Positions 32,465 through 56,344 of a DNA stretch of 64,000 nucleotides are shown here, piece after piece. How positions within the stretch are numbered: position 1 is the first letter of the stretch; every line of letters starts with the position of its first letter. The DNA is taken from NCBI RefSeq assembly GCF_024138125.1, contig NZ_CP099993.1:992001-1056000 (forward strand). The letters are read 5' to 3'. Below the pieces are notes generated by a model. It worked only from the letters and a program-made list of their open reading frames with translations, did no database searches and was not told the origin of the DNA. The position numbers and the translations under genes are program-made. Origin of the DNA: Halorussus salilacus. GTDB lineage: Archaea; Halobacteriota; Halobacteria; Halobacteriales; Haladaptataceae.

Positions 32465-34807
32465 TCACCGGACCGAGTCGAGCACCAGCTTCTGCTCGAC
32501 TCGCTTGACCTCGTGCTGGACGTCCCGGACCGCGTCGATGTTCGCGGAGATGGAGCTGACCCCCTCGTTGACGAGGTGCTGGACCATCCGGGGCTTCGAC
32601 CCGGCCTGCCCGCAGATGCTCGTCGCCACGTCGTGTTCGCGGCAGGTCTCGATGGTCTCGGAGATGAGCTGGAGGACGGCGGGATGGAGTTCGTCGAACC
32701 GGTCGGCGACGTTCTCGTTGTTGCGGTCGACCGCGAGGGTGTACTGGGTGAGGTCGTTGGTGCCGAACGACGCGAAGTCGATGCCCTGCTCGGCCATGGC
32801 CTCGATGCCGAGCGCCGAGGCGGGCGTCTCGACCATCACGCCCCACGTCCGCTTGTCGGGGTCGATGCCAGACTCGGCCATGAGGTTGCGCGCGCGAATC
32901 ACGTCCTCGGCGTCGTTGACCAGCGGGAACATGATCTCGACGTTGTCGTAGCCCATCTCGTAGAGGCGCGCGAACGCCTCCAGTTCGTGGGCGAACACGT
33001 CGGGGCGGTCGAGGCTCCGCCGGATGCCCCGGTAGCCCAGCATCGGGTTGTGCTCGTCGGGTTCGTCCTCGCCGCCCTGTAGCTGGCGGAACTCGTCGGT
33101 CGGCGCGTCGAGCGTCCGCACCCGAACCGGCCGGGGGTAGAACTCCTCGGCGACCGTCTGGACCCCCTCGACGATCTCGGTGACGTACGCGTCCTCGCCG
33201 TGGTCTTCGAGGTATCGGGCGGGGGTCTTGTTCGTCGAGAGAATCATGTGCTCCATCCGGAGCAGTCCGACGCCGTCGGCACCGGTCGCGGCCGCGCGCT
33301 CGGCGGCCTCCGGGATGGAGACGTTGACCTTGACCTCGGTCGCGGTCATCGGCTTGACCGGGGTCTTCGGCCGGGCCTCCTCGATGGGTTCGCGCTCCTC
33401 GTCGGCGTCGGTGTGGCCCTCCCGGATGGTCCCCTTGTCGCCGTCGAGGGTGACCAGCTGGTCGTCGGCGAGCGACGAGGTGGCGTTCCCGCAACCGACG
33501 ACCGCCGGACAACCCAGTTCGCGCGAAACGATGGCGGCGTGGCTGGTCATGCCGCCCTCGTCGGTCACGATGCCCGCCGCGCGCTTCATCGCGGGCACCA
33601 TGTCGGGCGTGGTCATCTCGGTCGCGATGATGTCGCCCTCGCCCACCTTGTCGAGCTGGTCGAGCTTGTCGACGATTCGGACCGCGCCCGACGCGATGCC
33701 GGGGCTCGCGCCGAGCCCGGAGACGATGACCTCGCCCTCGGTCTCGCCCGCGTTCGACCCGTTCGAGCCGCCCGCGGCCTCGACCGCACCGCTACCGTCG
33801 GCGATGCCCTCGGTCTCTGTCCCGGCGTCTGTGTCGGTCTGAATCTCGCCGTCGCCGTCGTCGATTGTCGTGATGGGCCGCGACTGGAGCATGAAGACCT
33901 CACCGTCGACGATTGCCCACTCCACGTCCTGAGGGGTGCCGTAGTGGTCCTCGACGCGCTCGCCGAGTTCCACGAGCCGCTCGACGTCGCGCTCGTCGAG
34001 GACCCGGGCCTCCCGGCGGTCGTCGGGGACCGCGCGCTCGACGGTCTCGCCGGTCTCCTCGTCTTTCTCCATCATGGTCTTCTTGTCCGAGACCGTGACC
34101 TCCACGACCTCGCCGGTCTCGCGGTCCACGACGTAGTTGTCGGGCGAGACCGACCCCGAGACGACCGCCTCGCCGAGCCCCCACGCCGCCTCGATGATGA
34201 GCTTCGGCTCGCCGGTCGAGGGGTGGCTGGTGAACATGACCCCGCTCTTGTCGGCGTCGACCATGCGCTGGACGACGACCGCGATGTCGACCTTCGAGTG
34301 GTCGAACCCCTTCTCCTGTCGGTAGTAGATGGCGCGCTGGGTGAAAAGCGACGCCCAGCACTCCTTGACTCGCTGGACGAGGTCCTCGCGGGTGACGTTG
34401 AGGAACGTCTCCTGCTGGCCCGCGAACGAGGCGTCGGGGAGGTCCTCGGCCGTCGCCGAGGACCGGACCGCGACGAACGGCTCGTCGCCCAGTTCGTCGT
34501 AGGCGTCGAGCATCTCCTCGCGCATCCCCCCGGGGAACTCGGTGTCGAGGATGAGCTCCGCGGCGCGTTCCTGGGCCTCCGCGAGCGCCGCGGAGTCGTC
34601 GGCGTCGACGTCGACGGCATCGAACAGCTCCTCGGCGATGCCGGTCTCCTCGATGAACGAGCGATAGGTACTCGCGCCGACGACGAACCCCGACGGGACC
34701 GGCAGGCCCGCGCCGGTGAGTTCCCCCAGCGACGCGCCCTTCCCGCCGACCGATTCGAGGTCGTCCGCAGTGACTTCGTCCAGCCAGAGTACAGCCATTG
34801 TGTCCAT
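32465..34807 (-). CDS. ppsA: Phosphoenolpyruvate synthase
   Basis: A 780-aa enzyme converting pyruvate and ATP to phosphoenolpyruvate, AMP and Pi in gluconeogenesis. Order: ATP-grasp nucleotide domain (VGGKGASLGELTGAGLPVP, about 1-320), a Glu/Gly/Ser-rich linker (about 325-365), the swivelling domain with phosphorylated His in GGMTSHAAIVSRELG, and the PEP-binding TIM barrel with ATSICGQAGSKP near the end. Start ATG 34807; ATG 34798 (MAVLWLDEV) is an alternative. Upstream, a palindrome surrounds a TATA-like element. Confidence 0.95.
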   Translation of the reverse strand: MDTMAVLWLDEVTADDLESVGGKGASLGELTGAGLPVPSGFVVGASTYRSFIEETGIAEELFDAVDVDADDSAALAEAQERAAELILDTEFPGGMREEMLDAYDELGDEPFVAVRSSATAEDLPDASFAGQQETFLNVTREDLVQRVKECWASLFTQRAIYYRQEKGFDHSKVDIAVVVQRMVDADKSGVMFTSHPSTGEPKLIIEAAWGLGEAVVSGSVSPDNYVVDRETGEVVEVTVSDKKTMMEKDEETGETVERAVPDDRREARVLDERDVERLVELGERVEDHYGTPQDVEWAIVDGEVFMLQSRPITTIDDGDGEIQTDTDAGTETEGIADGSGAVEAAGGSNGSNAGETEGEVIVSGLGASPGIASGAVRIVDKLDQLDKVGEGDIIATEMTTPDMVPAMKRAAGIVTDEGGMTSHAAIVSRELGCPAVVGCGNATSSLADDQLVTLDGDKGTIREGHTDADEEREPIEEARPKTPVKPMTATEVKVNVSIPEAAERAAATGADGVGLLRMEHMILSTNKTPARYLEDHGEDAYVTEIVEGVQTVAEEFYPRPVRVRTLDAPTDEFRQLQGGEDEPDEHNPMLGYRGIRRSLDRPDVFAHELEAFARLYEMGYDNVEIMFPLVNDAEDVIRARNLMAESGIDPDKRTWGVMVETPASALGIEAMAEQGIDFASFGTNDLTQYTLAVDRNNENVADRFDELHPAVLQLISETIETCREHDVATSICGQAGSKPRMVQHLVNEGVSSISANIDAVRDVQHEVKRVEQKLVLDSVR

Positions 34808-48236: not shown

Positions 48237-50798
48237 ATGGAGCTGATAATCACCGAGAAGGACAACGCCGCGCGGCGCATCGCCGACATCCTGAGCGGCG
48301 AGTCGGCCGAAGCCGACCGCCGAAACGGCGTCAACGTCTACGAGTGGGGCGGCAAGCGGTGCATCGGCCTCTCGGGCCACGTCGTCGGCGTGGACTTCCC
48401 CGACGAGTACAACGACTGGCGCGACGTCGAGCCGGTCGAGCTCATCGACGCGCCCATCGAGAAGAAGCCCACGAAGGAGAACATCGTCCGGACGCTGCGC
48501 CTGCTCGCGCGCAAGGCCGATCTGGTCACCATCGCGACCGACTACGACCGGGAGGGCGAACTCATCGGTAAGGAGGCGTGGGAGCTCGTCCGCGAGGTCA
48601 ACGACGAGGTCCCCATCCGGCGGGTCCGGTTCTCCTCTATCACCGACAACGAGGTGGTCGACGCCTTCGAGGACCCCGACGAACTCGACTTCGATCTGGC
48701 CGCCGCGGGCGAGGCCAGACAGGAGATAGACCTCATCTGGGGCGCGGCGCTGACGCGATTCCTCTCGCTGTCGGCCCGCCAGCTCGGCGACGACTTCATC
48801 TCGGTCGGGCGGGTGCAGTCGCCCACCCTCAAGCTCATCGTGGACCGCGAGCGCGAGATCGAGGCGTTCGACCCCGAGGACTACTGGGAGCTGTTCGCCG
48901 ACCTCCTGAAGGAGGACGCCGACGAGGACGCCGCGTTCGAGTCCCAGTACTTCTACCTCGACGACGAGGACAATGAGGCCGAGCGCGTCTGGGACGAGGA
49001 GACCGCAGAATCCGTGTTCGAGGCGCTCGACGCCGCGACCGAGGCGGTCGTCGAGCGCGTCTCCCGGCGCACCCGGACCGACGACCCGCCAGCGCCGTTC
49101 AACACCACCCAGTTCATCCGCGCGGCGGGGAGTCTGGGTTACTCGGCCCAGCGCGCGATGAGCATCGCCGAGGACCTCTACACCGCGGGCTACATCACCT
49201 ACCCGCGGACCGACAACACGGTCTATCCCGACGATTTGGACCCCGAGGAACTGCTCGACGCCTTCTCGGGCGACTACCACTTCGGCGACGACGCCGACGA
49301 CCTGCTGGAGGCCGACGACATCGAACCCACCGAGGGCGACGAGGAGACCACCGACCACCCGCCCATCCACCCGACCGAGGACCTGCCGACGAAGGGCGAC
49401 CTGAGCGACGACGAGTGGGAGGTCTACGAACTCGTCGTCCGGCGCTTTTTCGCCACCGTCGCCGATTCGGCGAAGTGGGAGCACCTCAAGGTCGTGGCGG
49501 GCGTCGAGGCCGACGGCGACACCCACCGGCTCAAGTCCAACGGCAAGCGCCTCGTCGAGGAGGGCTACCACGCGGTCTACCCCTACTTCAACACCTCCGA
49601 GAACTACGTCCCCGACGTGACCGAGGGCGAGCAGCTCGCGGTGACCGACGCTCGCATCGAGGACAAGCAGACCCAGCCCCCTCGCCGGTACGGCCAGTCG
49701 CGGCTCATCGAGACCATGGAGAAGATGGGGGTGGGGACCAAGAGCACGAGACACAACACCGTAGAGAAGCTCTACGACCGCGGCTACGTCGAGGGCGACC
49801 CGCCCAGACCCACCCAGCTCGCGAAGGCGGTCGTCGAGGCCGCAGAGGAGTTCGCCGACCTCGTGGTCAGCGAGGAGATGACCCGCGAACTGGAGGAGGA
49901 CATGACCGCCATCGCGGAGGGCGAGGCCGACATCGAGGACGTGGCCGACGAGTCCCGGGAGTACCTCCAGCAGGTCTTCGAGGAGCTCCGGGAATCCCGC
50001 GAGGAGGTCGGCGACCTGCTCCAGAAGTCGCTGAAGGCCGACAAGACCCTCGGGCCGTGTCCCGAGTCGGACCACGAACTCCTCGTCCGCCAGAGCAGGC
50101 GGGGGTCGTACTTCGTCGGCTGTGACGGCTACCCCGACTGCGAGTACACCCTCCCGCTCCCGAACACGGGCAAGCCGCTCATCCTCGACGAGGAGTGCGA
50201 GGAACACGGCCTGCGCCACGTCAAGATGCTCGCGGGCCGCCAGACGTTCGTCCACGGCTGTCCCCTCTGCAAGGCCGAGGAGGCCGACGAGGAGGACGAC
50301 GAGGTCATCGGGGTCTGCCCGGAATGTGGAGAGGGCGTTGCTCCGGAGGAGCAACGAAGCGAAGGCGGTGAAACCGCCGAAGCCGACGGCGGGGAGTTGG
50401 CCATCAAGCACCTCCAGAACGGGTCGCGGCTCGTGGGCTGTACGCGGTACCCCGACTGCGACTACTCCCTGCCGCTCCCGCGTCGGGGGGACATCGAAAT
50501 CACCGACGAGCGCTGCGAGGAACACGACCTGCCCGAACTCGTGGTCCACAACGGCGACGAGCCGTGGGAACTGGGGTGTCCCATCTGCAACTACCGCGAG
50601 TATCAGGCCCGCGAGAGCGAGTCGGGGAGCGACCTCGAATCCGTGGACGGAATCGGCTCGAAGACGGCCGAGAAGCTCGCGGCGGCGGGCGTCGAGAGCA
50701 TCGAGGACCTCAAGGAGGCCGAAGTCGAGACGGTGGCCTCGGAGGTCAGCGGGGTCAGCGAGGACCGACTCCGGAGCTGGCAGGCGAAGGCGGACTAG
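48237..50798 (+). CDS. topA: DNA topoisomerase I (type IA)
   Basis: An 853-aa relaxing topoisomerase. TOPRIM is MELIITEKDNAARRIADIL then ATDYDREGELIGKEAW (acidic triad region). The catalytic Tyr lies in AGYITYPRTDNTVYPDD. The C-terminus has Cys-rich zinc-finger units (CPESDHELL...CDGYPDCEYTLPL, repeated about twice) and an HhH unit (GIGSKTAEKLAAAGV). A low-complexity hairpin-coding stretch interrupts one finger linker at 50337-50378. Its last codons are duplicated at 51378-51418. Confidence 0.95.
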   Translation: MELIITEKDNAARRIADILSGESAEADRRNGVNVYEWGGKRCIGLSGHVVGVDFPDEYNDWRDVEPVELIDAPIEKKPTKENIVRTLRLLARKADLVTIATDYDREGELIGKEAWELVREVNDEVPIRRVRFSSITDNEVVDAFEDPDELDFDLAAAGEARQEIDLIWGAALTRFLSLSARQLGDDFISVGRVQSPTLKLIVDREREIEAFDPEDYWELFADLLKEDADEDAAFESQYFYLDDEDNEAERVWDEETAESVFEALDAATEAVVERVSRRTRTDDPPAPFNTTQFIRAAGSLGYSAQRAMSIAEDLYTAGYITYPRTDNTVYPDDLDPEELLDAFSGDYHFGDDADDLLEADDIEPTEGDEETTDHPPIHPTEDLPTKGDLSDDEWEVYELVVRRFFATVADSAKWEHLKVVAGVEADGDTHRLKSNGKRLVEEGYHAVYPYFNTSENYVPDVTEGEQLAVTDARIEDKQTQPPRRYGQSRLIETMEKMGVGTKSTRHNTVEKLYDRGYVEGDPPRPTQLAKAVVEAAEEFADLVVSEEMTRELEEDMTAIAEGEADIEDVADESREYLQQVFEELRESREEVGDLLQKSLKADKTLGPCPESDHELLVRQSRRGSYFVGCDGYPDCEYTLPLPNTGKPLILDEECEEHGLRHVKMLAGRQTFVHGCPLCKAEEADEEDDEVIGVCPECGEGVAPEEQRSEGGETAEADGGELAIKHLQNGSRLVGCTRYPDCDYSLPLPRRGDIEITDERCEEHDLPELVVHNGDEPWELGCPICNYREYQARESESGSDLESVDGIGSKTAEKLAAAGVESIEDLKEAEVETVASEVSGVSEDRLRSWQAKAD
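50337..50378 (+). repeat. Palindromic insert inside topA coding sequence
   Basis: GTTGCTCC-gga-GGAGCAAC (50337-50355) followed by GGCGG-tgaaa-CCGCC (50364-50378). The block codes for VAPEEQRSEGGETAE in frame, between zinc-finger units. It resembles intergenic repeat sequence that has entered a coding region. Confidence 0.6.
50754..50791 (+). repeat. topA 3' end direct repeat, copy 1 (left border)
   Basis: A 38-bp sequence beginning GTCAGCGAGGACCGACTCC is identical to 51378-51415, 624 bp downstream. Copy 1 codes for the last 13 residues of TopA. After the identical core copy 1 has GGACTAG and copy 2 CGACTGA, both encoding the same end -AD-stop with synonymous differences. Confidence 0.9.
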
Positions 50799-51230: not shown

Positions 51231-51368
51231 TCACCCCTCCACCGCGTTCTCTGCGATTTCTATCTCCTCGTCTGTCAGTCCGCACAGTTCGTAGACCATC
51301 TGGTCGATTAGCTCGCGGGTCGTCTCGATCTTCTCGTCCAGTTCCTCGGCCCGCGCTTTCGTTTCGAA
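51231..51368 (-). pseudogene. C-terminal fragment of a type IIG restriction-modification enzyme
   Basis: The last 45 codons (ETKARAEELDEKIETTRELI and so on, ending NAVEG) match the C-terminus of the complete enzyme at 52190-56344 at 35 of 45 positions. The match stops at about 51368, 10 bp from the second topA-end repeat. The rest of the gene is missing, and the upstream frame to 51545 reads repeat sequence. Confidence 0.85.
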
Positions 51369-51377
51369 GTGCAGGGC

Positions 51378-51415
51378 GTCAGCGAGGACCGACTCCGGAG
51401 CTGGCAGGCGAAGGC
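51378..51415 (+). repeat. topA 3' end direct repeat, copy 2 (right border)
   Basis: Identical in 38 bp to 50754-50791. It encodes SEDRLRSWQAKAD and a TGA stop but has no topA in front of it. It is followed by a TTTTT run that may be the original topA transcript end. Confidence 0.9.
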
Positions 51416-51445
51416 CGACTGAGGAGATTCGCGTCGGCGTCCGTT

Positions 51446-51790: not shown

Positions 51791-51797
51791 TTTTAAG
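51791..51797 (+). promoter_or_regulatory. TATA box of the 94-aa gene
   Basis: TTTTAAG centred at 51794. A start site 26 nt downstream would be 51820, exactly the first base of the three-way-junction leader. Confidence 0.55.
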
Positions 51798-51819
51798 ACA
51801 CGTCAGATGCAACGACAAA

Positions 51820-51897
51820 CCACGACACTCGGCTCGTCACTGCAAAAGTGACAGGGTGTGACCGCACCCTGCCGGGTGTCGTGGAGCCACCACGACA
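51820..51897 (+). promoter_or_regulatory. Switch-like structured 5' leader
   Basis: P1 is 14 bp (51820-51833 with 51871-51884; one G-U). P2 is GTCAC/GTGAC with loop TGCAAAA (51836-51852). P3 is AGGGTG/CACCCT with loop TGACCG (51853-51870). P2 and P3 stack between the P1 strands with only two unpaired bases. The P1 3' strand TGTCGTGG (51877-51884) is also the exact complement of CCACGACA (51890-51897), forming an alternative 8-bp hairpin that ends at the AUG. The two states exclude each other. Confidence 0.5.
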
Positions 51898-52182
51898 ATG
51901 TCAGATAATAATTCGGACCAAGATAGTAGTGTCGAATCCGAAAACGACGACTCGCACGTCTCGCCGGAGGTCCTCGCCGAATCCATCAGGCGCAAGACCG
52001 ACGCGCTCCACGCGCAGGGCCTCGCCCTCGCCGACCGACTGGAGCGCATGGCCGAGGCCGACGACGGGGACGGGGAGGTGGACACCGCGGCCATGATGAC
52101 CGAGCTGTTGGAGACCGCCAGCGACCTCGTGGAGGTGGCCCACGCGATAGAGACCGCGCGGTTGCACGACGACTCGGAGTAG
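51898..52182 (+). CDS. Unknown acidic 94-aa protein
   Basis: A small protein: acidic Ser/Asp-rich N-terminus (SDNNSDQDSSVESENDD) and a helical body (PEVLAESIRRKTDALHAQGL, then AMMTELLETASDLVEVAHAI). Not recognised. ATG 51898 directly follows the structured leader. It is convergent with the type IIG RM gene (8 bp between stops), and may belong to the cassette. Confidence 0.65.
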   Translation: MSDNNSDQDSSVESENDDSHVSPEVLAESIRRKTDALHAQGLALADRLERMAEADDGDGEVDTAAMMTELLETASDLVEVAHAIETARLHDDSE

Positions 52183-52189
52183 TTCGGGG

Positions 52190-55100
52190 CTACTCTCCGA
52201 CCGCGTTCTCGACGATTTCTATCTCCTCGTCGGTCAGGCCGTACAGTTCGTAGACGATCTGGTCGATGAGGTCGTCGGTCCGCTCGATTTTCGCGTCCAG
52301 TTCCTCGGCGCGGGCTTTGGTCTCGATGTAGCTTTTCAGTCCGGACTCAACGTCCTCGACTTTCGGAAGCGTGAGTTTCTTGAGTCGGTCCATGAGCGAG
52401 TTCGTCTTGGTGGCGTTGTCGCGGAAGTCGGCGAAGCCTCCGGCCTCCTCGACGGCGACCGGGACGAACGCCTCCACGAGGTCTGCCTCGGTCTCGGTCA
52501 GGTCGGTGATTCGGAGCGCGGGCAGGAACTCCGTCTCGGTGTAGCCGTACTGGTCGAGGTCGTGGCCGTCCTCCTCGTCGGGCTTGTAGCGCGCCGTGAG
52601 GTGGACGGTGACGCTGGTGGGGCCTTCGCGTTCGACCTTCGCGCGCTCTATCTGGAGTTTGGTTCTGGTCTCGGTGGTCTCGTTCAGGATGGAATTCGCA
52701 GAGCCTGCTGGGGGTTGGGTGAAGCCGATTTCGGTGATGGTCTGGCCGTCGGAGTAGTTTCCGAGGTAGTCCTGAAGTTGAAGGTTCAGTTGAAGATGAG
52801 ACTGATTAAGTTCCATAATTTCTTCGCCGATATTTGATAGAAGTCTATAGACCTCAGTATCTCTATCTTCTGAGAGAATTTCAGAAGCAGAGTCCACGAC
52901 ATTTTCTATGCTCTGGGAACCATTTATTGCTCTGATCGCTTTCTCAGTAAGGCCGTTCTCAGACTCTTTTTTGTGACTCTTTGCTGGTCCCTCAATCTCT
53001 GCAATGGGGAGTTTATTGATGTGGTTCGGCACCACACTAAGATTGTCCGATAAGTTCGTCTTGTAGAACCACTGCATTAGTGACGAGTTCACTAATGTGA
53101 GCGGATAATAAATATTAGTGTATTTACTGGATTCTGGAGTCGCTTCTGGTATTCCGGGTCGGTTAACATCCTGAACATCTTGGATATTCACACACGGAAT
53201 AAGTGTCGAGAAGCAGTAGTATCCGGTTTTATCTGCGACAGCCATCAAGCCCCGTCCACTAATTTTTCGGAAAACAATTTTATCACTTTCAAAGAGTTCC
53301 GCAAACATCGGATTATAGAGGTCTGATTTCTCGTAGATGATTCTCTCTGAAGGAGGGTTAAGTCGATATCGGCCAACAATATTTTGCCCACGAATCATTG
53401 GATATGAATTTGGTGCATCCGAATCCTTTACCACGTATTTCTCAGTTTTCTCTTTTGTTCCAGTTCGTAGTCCCCAGTTAACATAGAAGATTCTGTCAAA
53501 TCGAAGAGATTGGTTTTTGATTTTTTGACTTAGCTCAACATCCTTGGCAGTTCTGGAAAGCCTGAAAGAGCTGTCATCTCTAGATACCGTTGTCTCGCGT
53601 GTTAATGAACCAGCCACCTGATGCGTATCGTCCTTCCATAACCGCAACTCAAACGATTTTTCGGATGAGTTACTATTTCTGAGAACGGGAATGAGGTTTG
53701 AAACAGTAACTCCCTTAAATACGCTCTTTTCTCTTAAATCAAGAATAGATTGAATCGACGTTTGTCTAAGTATAAATTCCCTAATCGGTTCTCCATAGGG
53801 CGCATTCGCAAATTTGTCTGGAATTATATATGAGAATGTGCCGTTTTCCCGAGTCAACTCAATTCCTTTCTGGGTGAAAATAACATAGAGATCGAATTTC
53901 ATATGGGCGGTCTCATAGGTCGTTCTTAGGAATTCAACAAAGTCGTCATTTAAGGTATCTCCATAGATTCGAACGTACGGCGGATTCCCGACCACAGCAT
54001 CGAACCCTGCATCCTCAGACACACCACCGTCCTCCCCGAAGAACACCTCGGGGAACTCCAGTTCCCAGTGGAAGAACTGTTCCTCACCAGCCATCGCCTG
54101 CGCGCTCCGGAACCAATCGGTCTCGGCCACGTCGGCCCACGAATCGTCGCGGAGCGCCTTCGCCATTCGCTCGTCGGCGTTGTCTGGCACGTCGAGGCCG
54201 AACTGTCCGGCGGTGTGGACCGACGCCATTTCGAGGAGGCGCTCGAACAGGGGGTCCTCGCGAATCTCCTCGTAGGTGCGTTCCATCTCCTTGATATCCG
54301 CGAGGGTGTCGTTCTCGATTGCCAGCAGGTCCTGCATGCGGTCCATCACCTGCTGGAGGGCCTGCTGGCGGGTCTGTTCCAGAAAGTCCTGCAGTTTCGC
54401 CTGTCCCGACGGGCCGTCCTCGTCGCTCGTGGACAGAATCTCGGTGATGTCGCTCCCGACCAGCGAGTTCCCGGCCTTGAGGTGGTGGTCGAGGAACGCC
54501 AGCGGCTGGTCGGCCGAGAGGGTTTCGAGCCACATCGAGAGCTTCGCGAGTTCGACCGCCATCCCGTTGAGGTCCACGCCGTAGATGCACTCCTTCGAGA
54601 CCTCGCGGCGGATTTGCTCCTCGTCGAACAGCGTCGCGGTTTCGAGTTCCCGGACCTCGGCCATCACCTGCTCGGCGAGGTAGCCCGTCGCCTTCGTGAG
54701 GAAGTGACCGCTTCCCATCGCCGGGTCGAGTATCTTGAGTTCCTTGACTCGCTTCCAGAACTCCGTGACGTACTCGACGGTTCCGGGTTCGAGGTCCGTC
54801 TCCGCGAGGTCTTCGTCGATTTCCTCGATGAGGGGGTCGACCGTCTCCTCGACGATGTACGTCACCACGTAGTCGGGCGTGTAGTACGCGCCCGTCGCCT
54901 TGCGCTCGCCCTCGTCGTTGACGACGTACAGGCTCCCCTCCGGGACGGTCTCGACGGCGTCGGCGACCGACACCTCGGTCGCGGGCTTCCACACCTGCCC
55001 GCCGTCTTCCGAGACCGCGGCGTACTGCTCGGGCGCGATGCGGAATTCGTGTTCGAGCAGGCCCTCGTAGATGGACCCGAGATGTCGCGTATCGAGGTCG

Positions 55101-56344
55101 GCGTAGTCGGCGGGGACGAACTCGCCCTCGTCGGTCTCGGTGGTCGAGAGGCGGTAGATGACCTCCGCGATGTACTCGTCTGCGACCCGGTTTTCCGCCA
55201 GGAACTCGTGTTCGTCGGCGTCGAACAGTCCGCCGTTGTACGGCGGGATTCCGAGGTCGTCCTCGCCCTGGTCGATGAGGCGAAAGAGGTCCTGCAGTCG
55301 TTGCCATATCGACATCGAGTACTCGCTGTACGCCGAATCGAAGGACTCGCCCGAATCGATGGTGTCGAGGATGTCGAGGCGCTTGCGGTCGAGGCTGAAG
55401 TTCTCGTCGTACTTCTGCTTCGCCGTCGAGTCGTCGGGGTCGATGAGATTCCGGGATTCCGCGTAGAGGACGAACATCAGCCGATACAGCAACACCAGCG
55501 ACTGCTCTTTGAGTTCGTCTAACGCCGCCTCGTCGTCGGGGTCGATGTGCAGGTCGTTCGTCTCGACGAACCCCTTCCCGAGGACCCGCAGCGCCGTGAA
55601 GACGTTGTCCTGAAGGTCTTCGCCGAGTTCCTGTGCCGCGGTCTCGCTTTCGTTCCAGACGGTATCGAGGAACGTGCTTCCCGAAACCTCGCGGAACGCT
55701 TCCGGACGGAAGAAGAGGTAGAAGTACTTGAAATCCTCCACGTCGCCGAATTCGAGCAGTTCCGGCAGGTCGATCTCGTAGAACGTCTGGGTCTCGTAGT
55801 CGTTCGTCCCGTAGAGTCGCCACTTCCGACCGTTGGTCAGGATGCCCCACTGGACCGACTCGGGCGTCCGTTCGAGATAGAACTTGACCTGATGGGAGGC
55901 GTCCCGATACTGGCGTTCCTCGCTGAATCGTTGCGTAAAGCTGGCGTTCCACTGCTTGGCTTCCAGTAGCCCGGAAGCCTTCTTGAACAGCACCTCCTCG
56001 TCGGCCTCCATGGCCTCCATCTCGGCTTCTCTGCGGGCCTCCTCGGAGTCGAACAGCAGTCGGTCGATGTACCCGCCTCCGTCGGGAAGCGTCACCTCCG
56101 GCCGTGAGCCGTACCCCAGAATTTCGAGAACGGGGTCTATCCACGCGTCAATCAGTGCGTCCTCTTTCTGCCCCTCGACCACCTTCTGCTCTCGCTCGTA
56201 GAGCGCCTGCAGTCGCTCGAAGGCCCCCTCGACACCCTCGGCGTCCTCCCATTCGTCCAGTTCGGCGATTCGCTCGTCGAGATAGTAGCCGGAGAAGAGA
56301 TTGGAATTACGGTAGGGTTCCGAGGAGAGCGTCGGTTGGCTCAT
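52190..56344 (-). CDS. Type IIG restriction-modification enzyme (Eco57I-like)
   Basis: A 1384-aa single-chain nuclease, methyltransferase and specificity protein. The N-terminal nuclease domain is PD-(D/E)xK type (GGGYIDRLLFDSEE...LLEAKQW, about 90-140). The methyltransferase has KATGAYYTPDYVVTY (motif X), ILDPAMGSGHFLTKA (motif I) and VGNPPYVRI (motif IV). A target-recognition region follows (about residues 780-1180). It cleaves unmodified DNA and methylates its own site (adenine). The part 52780-53990 is AT-rich, unlike both ends. Start ATG 56344. Confidence 0.92.
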   Translation of the reverse strand: MSQPTLSSEPYRNSNLFSGYYLDERIAELDEWEDAEGVEGAFERLQALYEREQKVVEGQKEDALIDAWIDPVLEILGYGSRPEVTLPDGGGYIDRLLFDSEEARREAEMEAMEADEEVLFKKASGLLEAKQWNASFTQRFSEERQYRDASHQVKFYLERTPESVQWGILTNGRKWRLYGTNDYETQTFYEIDLPELLEFGDVEDFKYFYLFFRPEAFREVSGSTFLDTVWNESETAAQELGEDLQDNVFTALRVLGKGFVETNDLHIDPDDEAALDELKEQSLVLLYRLMFVLYAESRNLIDPDDSTAKQKYDENFSLDRKRLDILDTIDSGESFDSAYSEYSMSIWQRLQDLFRLIDQGEDDLGIPPYNGGLFDADEHEFLAENRVADEYIAEVIYRLSTTETDEGEFVPADYADLDTRHLGSIYEGLLEHEFRIAPEQYAAVSEDGGQVWKPATEVSVADAVETVPEGSLYVVNDEGERKATGAYYTPDYVVTYIVEETVDPLIEEIDEDLAETDLEPGTVEYVTEFWKRVKELKILDPAMGSGHFLTKATGYLAEQVMAEVRELETATLFDEEQIRREVSKECIYGVDLNGMAVELAKLSMWLETLSADQPLAFLDHHLKAGNSLVGSDITEILSTSDEDGPSGQAKLQDFLEQTRQQALQQVMDRMQDLLAIENDTLADIKEMERTYEEIREDPLFERLLEMASVHTAGQFGLDVPDNADERMAKALRDDSWADVAETDWFRSAQAMAGEEQFFHWELEFPEVFFGEDGGVSEDAGFDAVVGNPPYVRIYGDTLNDDFVEFLRTTYETAHMKFDLYVIFTQKGIELTRENGTFSYIIPDKFANAPYGEPIREFILRQTSIQSILDLREKSVFKGVTVSNLIPVLRNSNSSEKSFELRLWKDDTHQVAGSLTRETTVSRDDSSFRLSRTAKDVELSQKIKNQSLRFDRIFYVNWGLRTGTKEKTEKYVVKDSDAPNSYPMIRGQNIVGRYRLNPPSERIIYEKSDLYNPMFAELFESDKIVFRKISGRGLMAVADKTGYYCFSTLIPCVNIQDVQDVNRPGIPEATPESSKYTNIYYPLTLVNSSLMQWFYKTNLSDNLSVVPNHINKLPIAEIEGPAKSHKKESENGLTEKAIRAINGSQSIENVVDSASEILSEDRDTEVYRLLSNIGEEIMELNQSHLQLNLQLQDYLGNYSDGQTITEIGFTQPPAGSANSILNETTETRTKLQIERAKVEREGPTSVTVHLTARYKPDEEDGHDLDQYGYTETEFLPALRITDLTETEADLVEAFVPVAVEEAGGFADFRDNATKTNSLMDRLKKLTLPKVEDVESGLKSYIETKARAEELDAKIERTDDLIDQIVYELYGLTDEEIEIVENAVGE

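Follow-up and report, generated by a model that had tools for sequence, protein, structure and literature searches.

Introduction

How does an RNA leader act that can fold either into a closed junction or into a hairpin ending exactly at the start codon? The question is raised by a small open reading frame (ORF) of the haloarchaeon Halorussus salilacus, lying in the 64,000-nt stretch of DNA analysed here (the window; NZ_CP099993.1, positions 992,001–1,056,000, with coordinates below counted from its first base). The region before this ORF had been read in a first-pass annotation, made from the sequence alone, as a switch-like leader with the architecture of a riboswitch or thermosensor. Few natural leaders of the switch type are on record for archaea; one paper names the fluoride riboswitch of Thermococcus as the sole natural archaeal riboswitch to have been established experimentally (PMC8241225). 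The covarying leader family described here, present in approximately one-fifth of the haloarchaeal genomes sampled and also in isolated haloviruses, would give archaeal viruses a new layer of gene control. Such a family is also relevant to how leadered haloarchaeal mRNAs that lack Shine-Dalgarno signals initiate translation, since the leader is a natural device whose parts could be moved into Haloferax reporters.

Fold and parts of the leader

RNA folding of 51820–51900 returned the structure first described, a three-way junction, as the predicted dominant state (−46.1 kcal/mol; z = −5.7, 0/200 shuffles equally good). Its parts, all on the forward (+) strand, and the evidence for each are as follows.

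51791–51797, +: TATA-like element TTTTAAG, inside TTCCCTAATTTTAAG (5/5 same-genus copies)
51820–51833 / 51871–51884, +: P1, 14 bp (RNA folding, covariation)
51820–51833, +: P1 5′ strand, putative transcript 5′ end (fold, covariation, phiH T4 parallel)
51836–51852, +: P2 hairpin (51836–51841 / 51847–51852), 6 bp, 5-nt loop (fold, covariation)
51853–51870, +: P3 hairpin (51853–51859 / 51864–51870), 7 bp, 4-nt loop (fold, covariation); core across the family, GUG-hexaloop-CAC (loop composition analysis)
51871–51884, +: P1 3′ strand, of which 51877–51884 is common to both structures
51890–51897, +: pre-AUG strand of the alternative helix, abutting the start codon (swap test, pair types)
51898–52182, +: ORF of 94 aa, AUG at 51898, two-helix hairpin predicted
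51922–51936, +: coding-region motif, codons 9–13, GAU AGU AGU GUC GAA

TTTTAAG and the first base of P1 lie where the first-pass annotation had placed them, and P1 does enclose two hairpins. These had been said to stack with no spare bases, which is true of two of the junctions (0 nt) but not of that between P1 and P2, where 51834–51835 (UC) are unpaired. In the alternative state, 51877–51884 pairs instead with 51890–51897 in an 8-bp helix that ends at the AUG; this is the weaker of the two (−39.6 vs −46.1 kcal/mol), the three-way junction being favoured by approximately 6.5 kcal/mol in model energies. A thermosensor, also suggested at the outset, is unlikely on this modelling: the default fold, at around −46 kcal/mol, leaves the AUG unpaired, rather than enclosed in a start-site helix that would melt.

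The sequence places the transcript start, as we infer it, at 51820. Among 150 related elements, A+T content peaks (0.86–0.87) at −28/−27 from the first base of P1, which is the usual place of the haloarchaeal TATA box. For the T4 transcript of halovirus phiH, the start on record from mapping (34556) coincides with the 5′-most base of P1 in a predicted three-way-junction fold, and the covariance-model match begins one base later, at 34557. Both the A/T peak and the phiH T4 start support a transcript beginning at P1.

A leader family in haloarchaea and haloviruses

A protein search with the 94-aa ORF, in which no RNA model was used, recovered homologues in three other sampled Halorussus-group genomes (one on a contig of Halorussus halobius), one of which has two, giving five loci including the window. 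The four other proteins are 60–84% identical to that of the window. The promoter TTCCCTAATTTTAAG and the three-way junction recur at each of the five loci, as does CCACGACR immediately ahead of the AUG, and conservation of the leader is in this respect independent of any RNA model. H. halobius has G in place of A at one position of the P1 5′ strand, and its pre-AUG strand carries the identical substitution. Genome contigs scanned with a DNA pattern gave matches only in H. halobius and in two unrelated MAGs. In the genome that holds the window, a degenerate second candidate (C1:1840535–1840623) precedes a 63-aa zinc-finger ORF, which keeps both the pre-AUG complement and the codon 9–13 motif.

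Covariance models, seeded from five genus sequences and extended outward in two rounds, detected the element in 84/391 sampled haloarchaeal genomes and 45/86 genera (cut-off E ≤ 1e-4 per genome), including families well beyond that of the source. It was found at first within one genus (up to nine, and later 10–23, matches per genome), then in a second family, and then widely; in a phylum-wide sample, whose make-up is known in part, matches were confined to the same order. Nearly all of 158 collected matches, the weak ones among them individually checked only in part, end at or near a start codon on the same strand. The element also occurs in IMG/VR proviral contigs and upstream of genes of named haloviruses (HJTV-4, Halorubrum tailed viruses, Humcor1 and BJ1, the last two being weak matches). 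A likely member is also present on pHSAL2 of Halobacterium salinarum 91-R6.

The stems of the family covary strongly. In each of two alignment sets, A4 and A5, 23/26 pairs of P1–P3 change on both sides, with covariation scores of 0.50 (A4) and 0.56 (A5) against 0.21 and 0.18 when shuffled. Paired cells amounted to 92% and 90% in the two sets, falling to 30–55% when a strand was slid by 1–3 columns, although the percentage paired is inflated by the fitting of the alignments to the model, and helix scoring leans toward structure. Compensatory changes, together with a consistent position at the gene 5′ end beside the start codon, mark the element as a structured cis-regulatory leader. Homologues keep both of the pairings first proposed, with compensation, the reverse of the outcome that would have counted against the first-pass annotation.

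Family-wide, stems are conserved and loops mostly variable except at the tip of P3. There a near-invariant GUG/CAC closes a hexaloop with a preference for C/U-U-G-G-A-A/G, possibly a contact for protein or RNA.

A three-way junction that resembles an aptamer and is linked to a hairpin at the start codon, together with a P3 loop that recurs as a C/U-U-N-N-A-A/G type, could also belong to a metabolite- or ion-binding riboswitch. We consider this improbable: there is little invariant unpaired core of the usual aptamer kind, the P2 loop is variable, and the downstream genes encode diverse small proteins with no common pathway.

The helix at the start codon

Among the 152 elements that have a start codon, the best pairing of the pre-AUG strand with the P1 3′ strand ends 0–1 nt before the AUG in 137. 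When each distinct pre-AUG hexamer was represented once (41 types), the mean helix score was 13.8, compared with 7.8 ± 0.5 with strands swapped between elements, and 0/1000 swaps reached 13.8. The pairings differ in sequence and register (GUCGUG/CACGAC, GCUGUG/CACAGC, GCUUC/GAAGC, GGGUGU/ACACCC, GGUCUU/AAGACC and UGUCCU/AGGACA), and the competing pre-AUG strand co-evolves with the shared P1 3′ strand, as mutually exclusive helices should. At 62 shared positions a G-U pair of P1 corresponds to a Watson-Crick pair of the alternative helix, with the reverse at 5, and at 67/665 positions the pre-AUG base is unlike that of the P1 5′ strand but still pairs. Variants that retain pairing, and the asymmetry of pair types, point to RNA pairing rather than a direct repeat in DNA. 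Comparison across the family (swap test, covariation and pair types) thus strongly supports the original proposal that the three-way junction and the AUG-abutting hairpin exclude one another.

The same data bear on whether the locus is instead a DNA element, that is, a recombination or insertion site or a set of protein operators whose repeats mimic RNA helices. The direct repeat CCACGACA, the inverted repeats and the frequent proximity of restriction-modification, eCIS and OLD-type genes would all suit such an element. It is scarcely credible, nonetheless, given the fixed order promoter–P1–AUG, the strand-specific position, the G-U-compatible changes, a pre-AUG strand that stays complementary even where it is unlike the P1 5′ strand, and the phiH start mapped at P1.

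The alternative helix is shorter than 5 bp in approximately 15% of members. Family mean energies are −40.9 kcal/mol for the P1 state and −36.4 kcal/mol for the alternative; as the P1 state is favoured in most members, something must open it.

A motif inside the coding sequence

Conservation continues past the AUG. The nucleotide pattern of codons 9–13, to which the window ORF conforms, is kept across 28 groups of downstream proteins among which no similarity is detectable past residue 18. Codon 11 has U at its third position in 23/28 groups (background 15%, P = 5e-15), codon 12 has C at its third position in 23/28, and codon 13 begins with G in 27/28. As wobble positions are conserved while amino acids vary, the constraint acts on the nucleic acid; such a motif is unusual, and directly testable. 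A hairpin around it is suggested, but not secure (11.5 vs 9.4 ± 0.5 in 28 representatives).

That ORFs for unrelated proteins share a nucleotide motif at constant spacing from their AUG is what might be expected of an archaeal viral translation enhancer, in which the 5′ structure would recruit the ribosome or an initiation factor and the pre-AUG strand and codon motif would belong to that contact, with no switch. The near-invariant GUG/CAC at the P3 tip and the partial support for a coding-region hairpin are in keeping with this. Recruitment alone, to which we give a small chance, leaves unexplained why the pre-AUG strand tracks the P1 3′ strand across so many sequences and registers.

The proteins encoded downstream are small (median 132 aa; 23/147 SWIM-like, 48/147 with CxxC), and many are of no assigned kind. 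The 94-aa protein of the window is predicted to form a two-helix hairpin with an acidic disordered N-terminus (pTM 0.34). This prediction has no structural match in the PDB. A SWIM protein query matched SWIM proteins on haloarchaeal plasmids, while a search of IMG/VR and phages with it gave nothing confirmed; the plasmid search gave no match for the protein family of the window or for the multi-copy paralogue family.

Comparison with known leaders

No Rfam 15 family matches the leader at its curated gathering score, the sole match being a tRNA elsewhere in one locus, and no such haloarchaeal leader is described in the open-access literature searched, the original phiH work lying outside it; the annotator's remark that no haloarchaeal element of this kind was known agrees with both. 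The window does show a weak hairpin likeness (17 bits, E = 0.051) to Rfam c4-a1b1 (RF03163), the target of the phage P1/P7 c4 antisense RNA. It is far below the gathering score of 46.7 and most likely due to chance.

The closest parallels are the early lytic transcripts T4 and T1 of phiH (GenBank MK002701), reportedly the work of Stolt and Zillig. Like the family, T4 opens at its start with a long 5′-terminal stem around two hairpins, one with a CUGG-containing loop; unlike the family, it scores weakly (18.9 bits with filters off) and has a much longer pre-AUG region. The T4 leader is likely a distant relative. T1 begins with AGAGCAGG; its GAGCAGG is paired with CCUGCUC, and AGAGC immediately precedes its AUG. 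This plan is analogous to that of the family, but T1 is longer and the covariance model gives no match. No description of either leader as a structured RNA family was found in the open-access literature searched.

In translational riboswitches and attenuators, too, one strand is common to an upstream fold and a start-codon helix, but the helix of the present leader abuts the AUG rather than burying it, and its signature extends into the ORF. Ribosomal-protein and phage autoregulatory leaders (translational operators) likewise have a structured leader beside the AUG, and a protein repressor is plausible here. A common autoregulator encoded downstream is unlikely, as at least 28 downstream groups have no detectable similarity. 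We file the leader as a new family within a known kind, structured cis-regulatory leaders with competing helices. It has two unusual traits, a helix that stops beside the AUG without covering it and a signature that reaches beyond the leader into the ORF.

Proposed mechanism

On these sequence comparisons, we read the element as a cis-acting 5′ leader of haloviral, proviral and plasmid-type element genes and of host accessory genes, which probably gates translation as a switch. Gating of translation is suggested by the fixed place at which the helix abuts the AUG. The likely default is the P1 state, since its 5′ strand is transcribed first and it is the more stable; P1 would be closed and the AUG would lie in a single-stranded stretch, most often 12–16 nt after P1. 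Were the P1 5′ strand displaced or occupied, the 3′ strand would be free to pair with the pre-AUG strand, forming the helix 0–1 nt from the AUG, which would most likely block initiation and, less likely, present the AUG in the manner of a leaderless start. The trigger would more likely be a protein or antisense RNA of the element's own control circuit than a metabolite or temperature.

There is about an even chance that the three-way junction defines a new class of RNA, common to haloarchaea and haloviruses, in which junction, switch helix and codon 9–13 code form one translation-control device. The same device would serve the early or control operons of tailed haloviruses and, amplified to 10–23 copies in some hosts, would be a common control of small accessory proteins encoded close to defence and eCIS genes.

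That the helix ends exactly 0–1 nt before the AUG could also be a mark of RNA processing or stability; the 5′ stem would shield the transcript, and a cut at the foot of the hairpin beside the AUG would free a leaderless mRNA. Haloarchaea reportedly translate leaderless mRNAs with higher efficiency than leadered ones (PMC8241225), and the phiH record (MK002701) notes a cleaved transcript, T4′, as well as an RNA antisense to the T1 leader. The end of T4′ lies far downstream, within a coding region, and we regard processing as unlikely.

Genomic setting

The restriction-modification gene adjoining the leader, pointed out by the first-pass annotation, is present in the window, yet it is absent from the same chromosomal place in a related genome. 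That genome has the order topA, element, ORF and GGGP synthase without a restriction gene, and the restriction gene was rejected as a constant partner. Other copies of the element adjoin radB, eCIS-core, OLD-type or provirus genes, and some lead an integrase gene; the element is tied to no single neighbour. A PHROG 26393-like gene lies divergently upstream in 28/147 cases, and isolated haloviruses share this layout, the element leading an operon across the intergenic region from such a gene. Halovirus control regions have repeated palindromes beside the element, for example TTAGCGCAAATGCTAA in Humcor1, which are probable repressor operators.

In the window (52190–56344) and at two further loci, in separate genomes, the element and small ORF lie directly downstream of, or convergent with, type IIG or DrmMI-like methyltransferase genes. 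Within the window, the type IIG restriction-methyltransferase gene has a 135-bp copy of its 3′ end (51237–51370 vs 52195–52329, 85% identical) beyond the leader and ORF, and these two thus lie between two copies of that gene end. A 46-bp duplication of the topoisomerase I gene 3′ end (50751–50796 vs 51375–51420, 96%), adjoining the type IIG remnant, looks like a rearrangement scar around the restriction gene.

Eight element-led ORFs in one genome lie near or divergent to genes of a single family, two tested members of which match the eCIS-core domain (PF13699); ankyrin-repeat or approximately 317-aa genes often follow these ORFs. Near one further element-led ORF is an OLD-type AAA+TOPRIM nuclease gene, and the locus of a related genome is without the nuclease. 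Some elements occur in pairs on opposite strands, approximately 0.1–1 kb apart.
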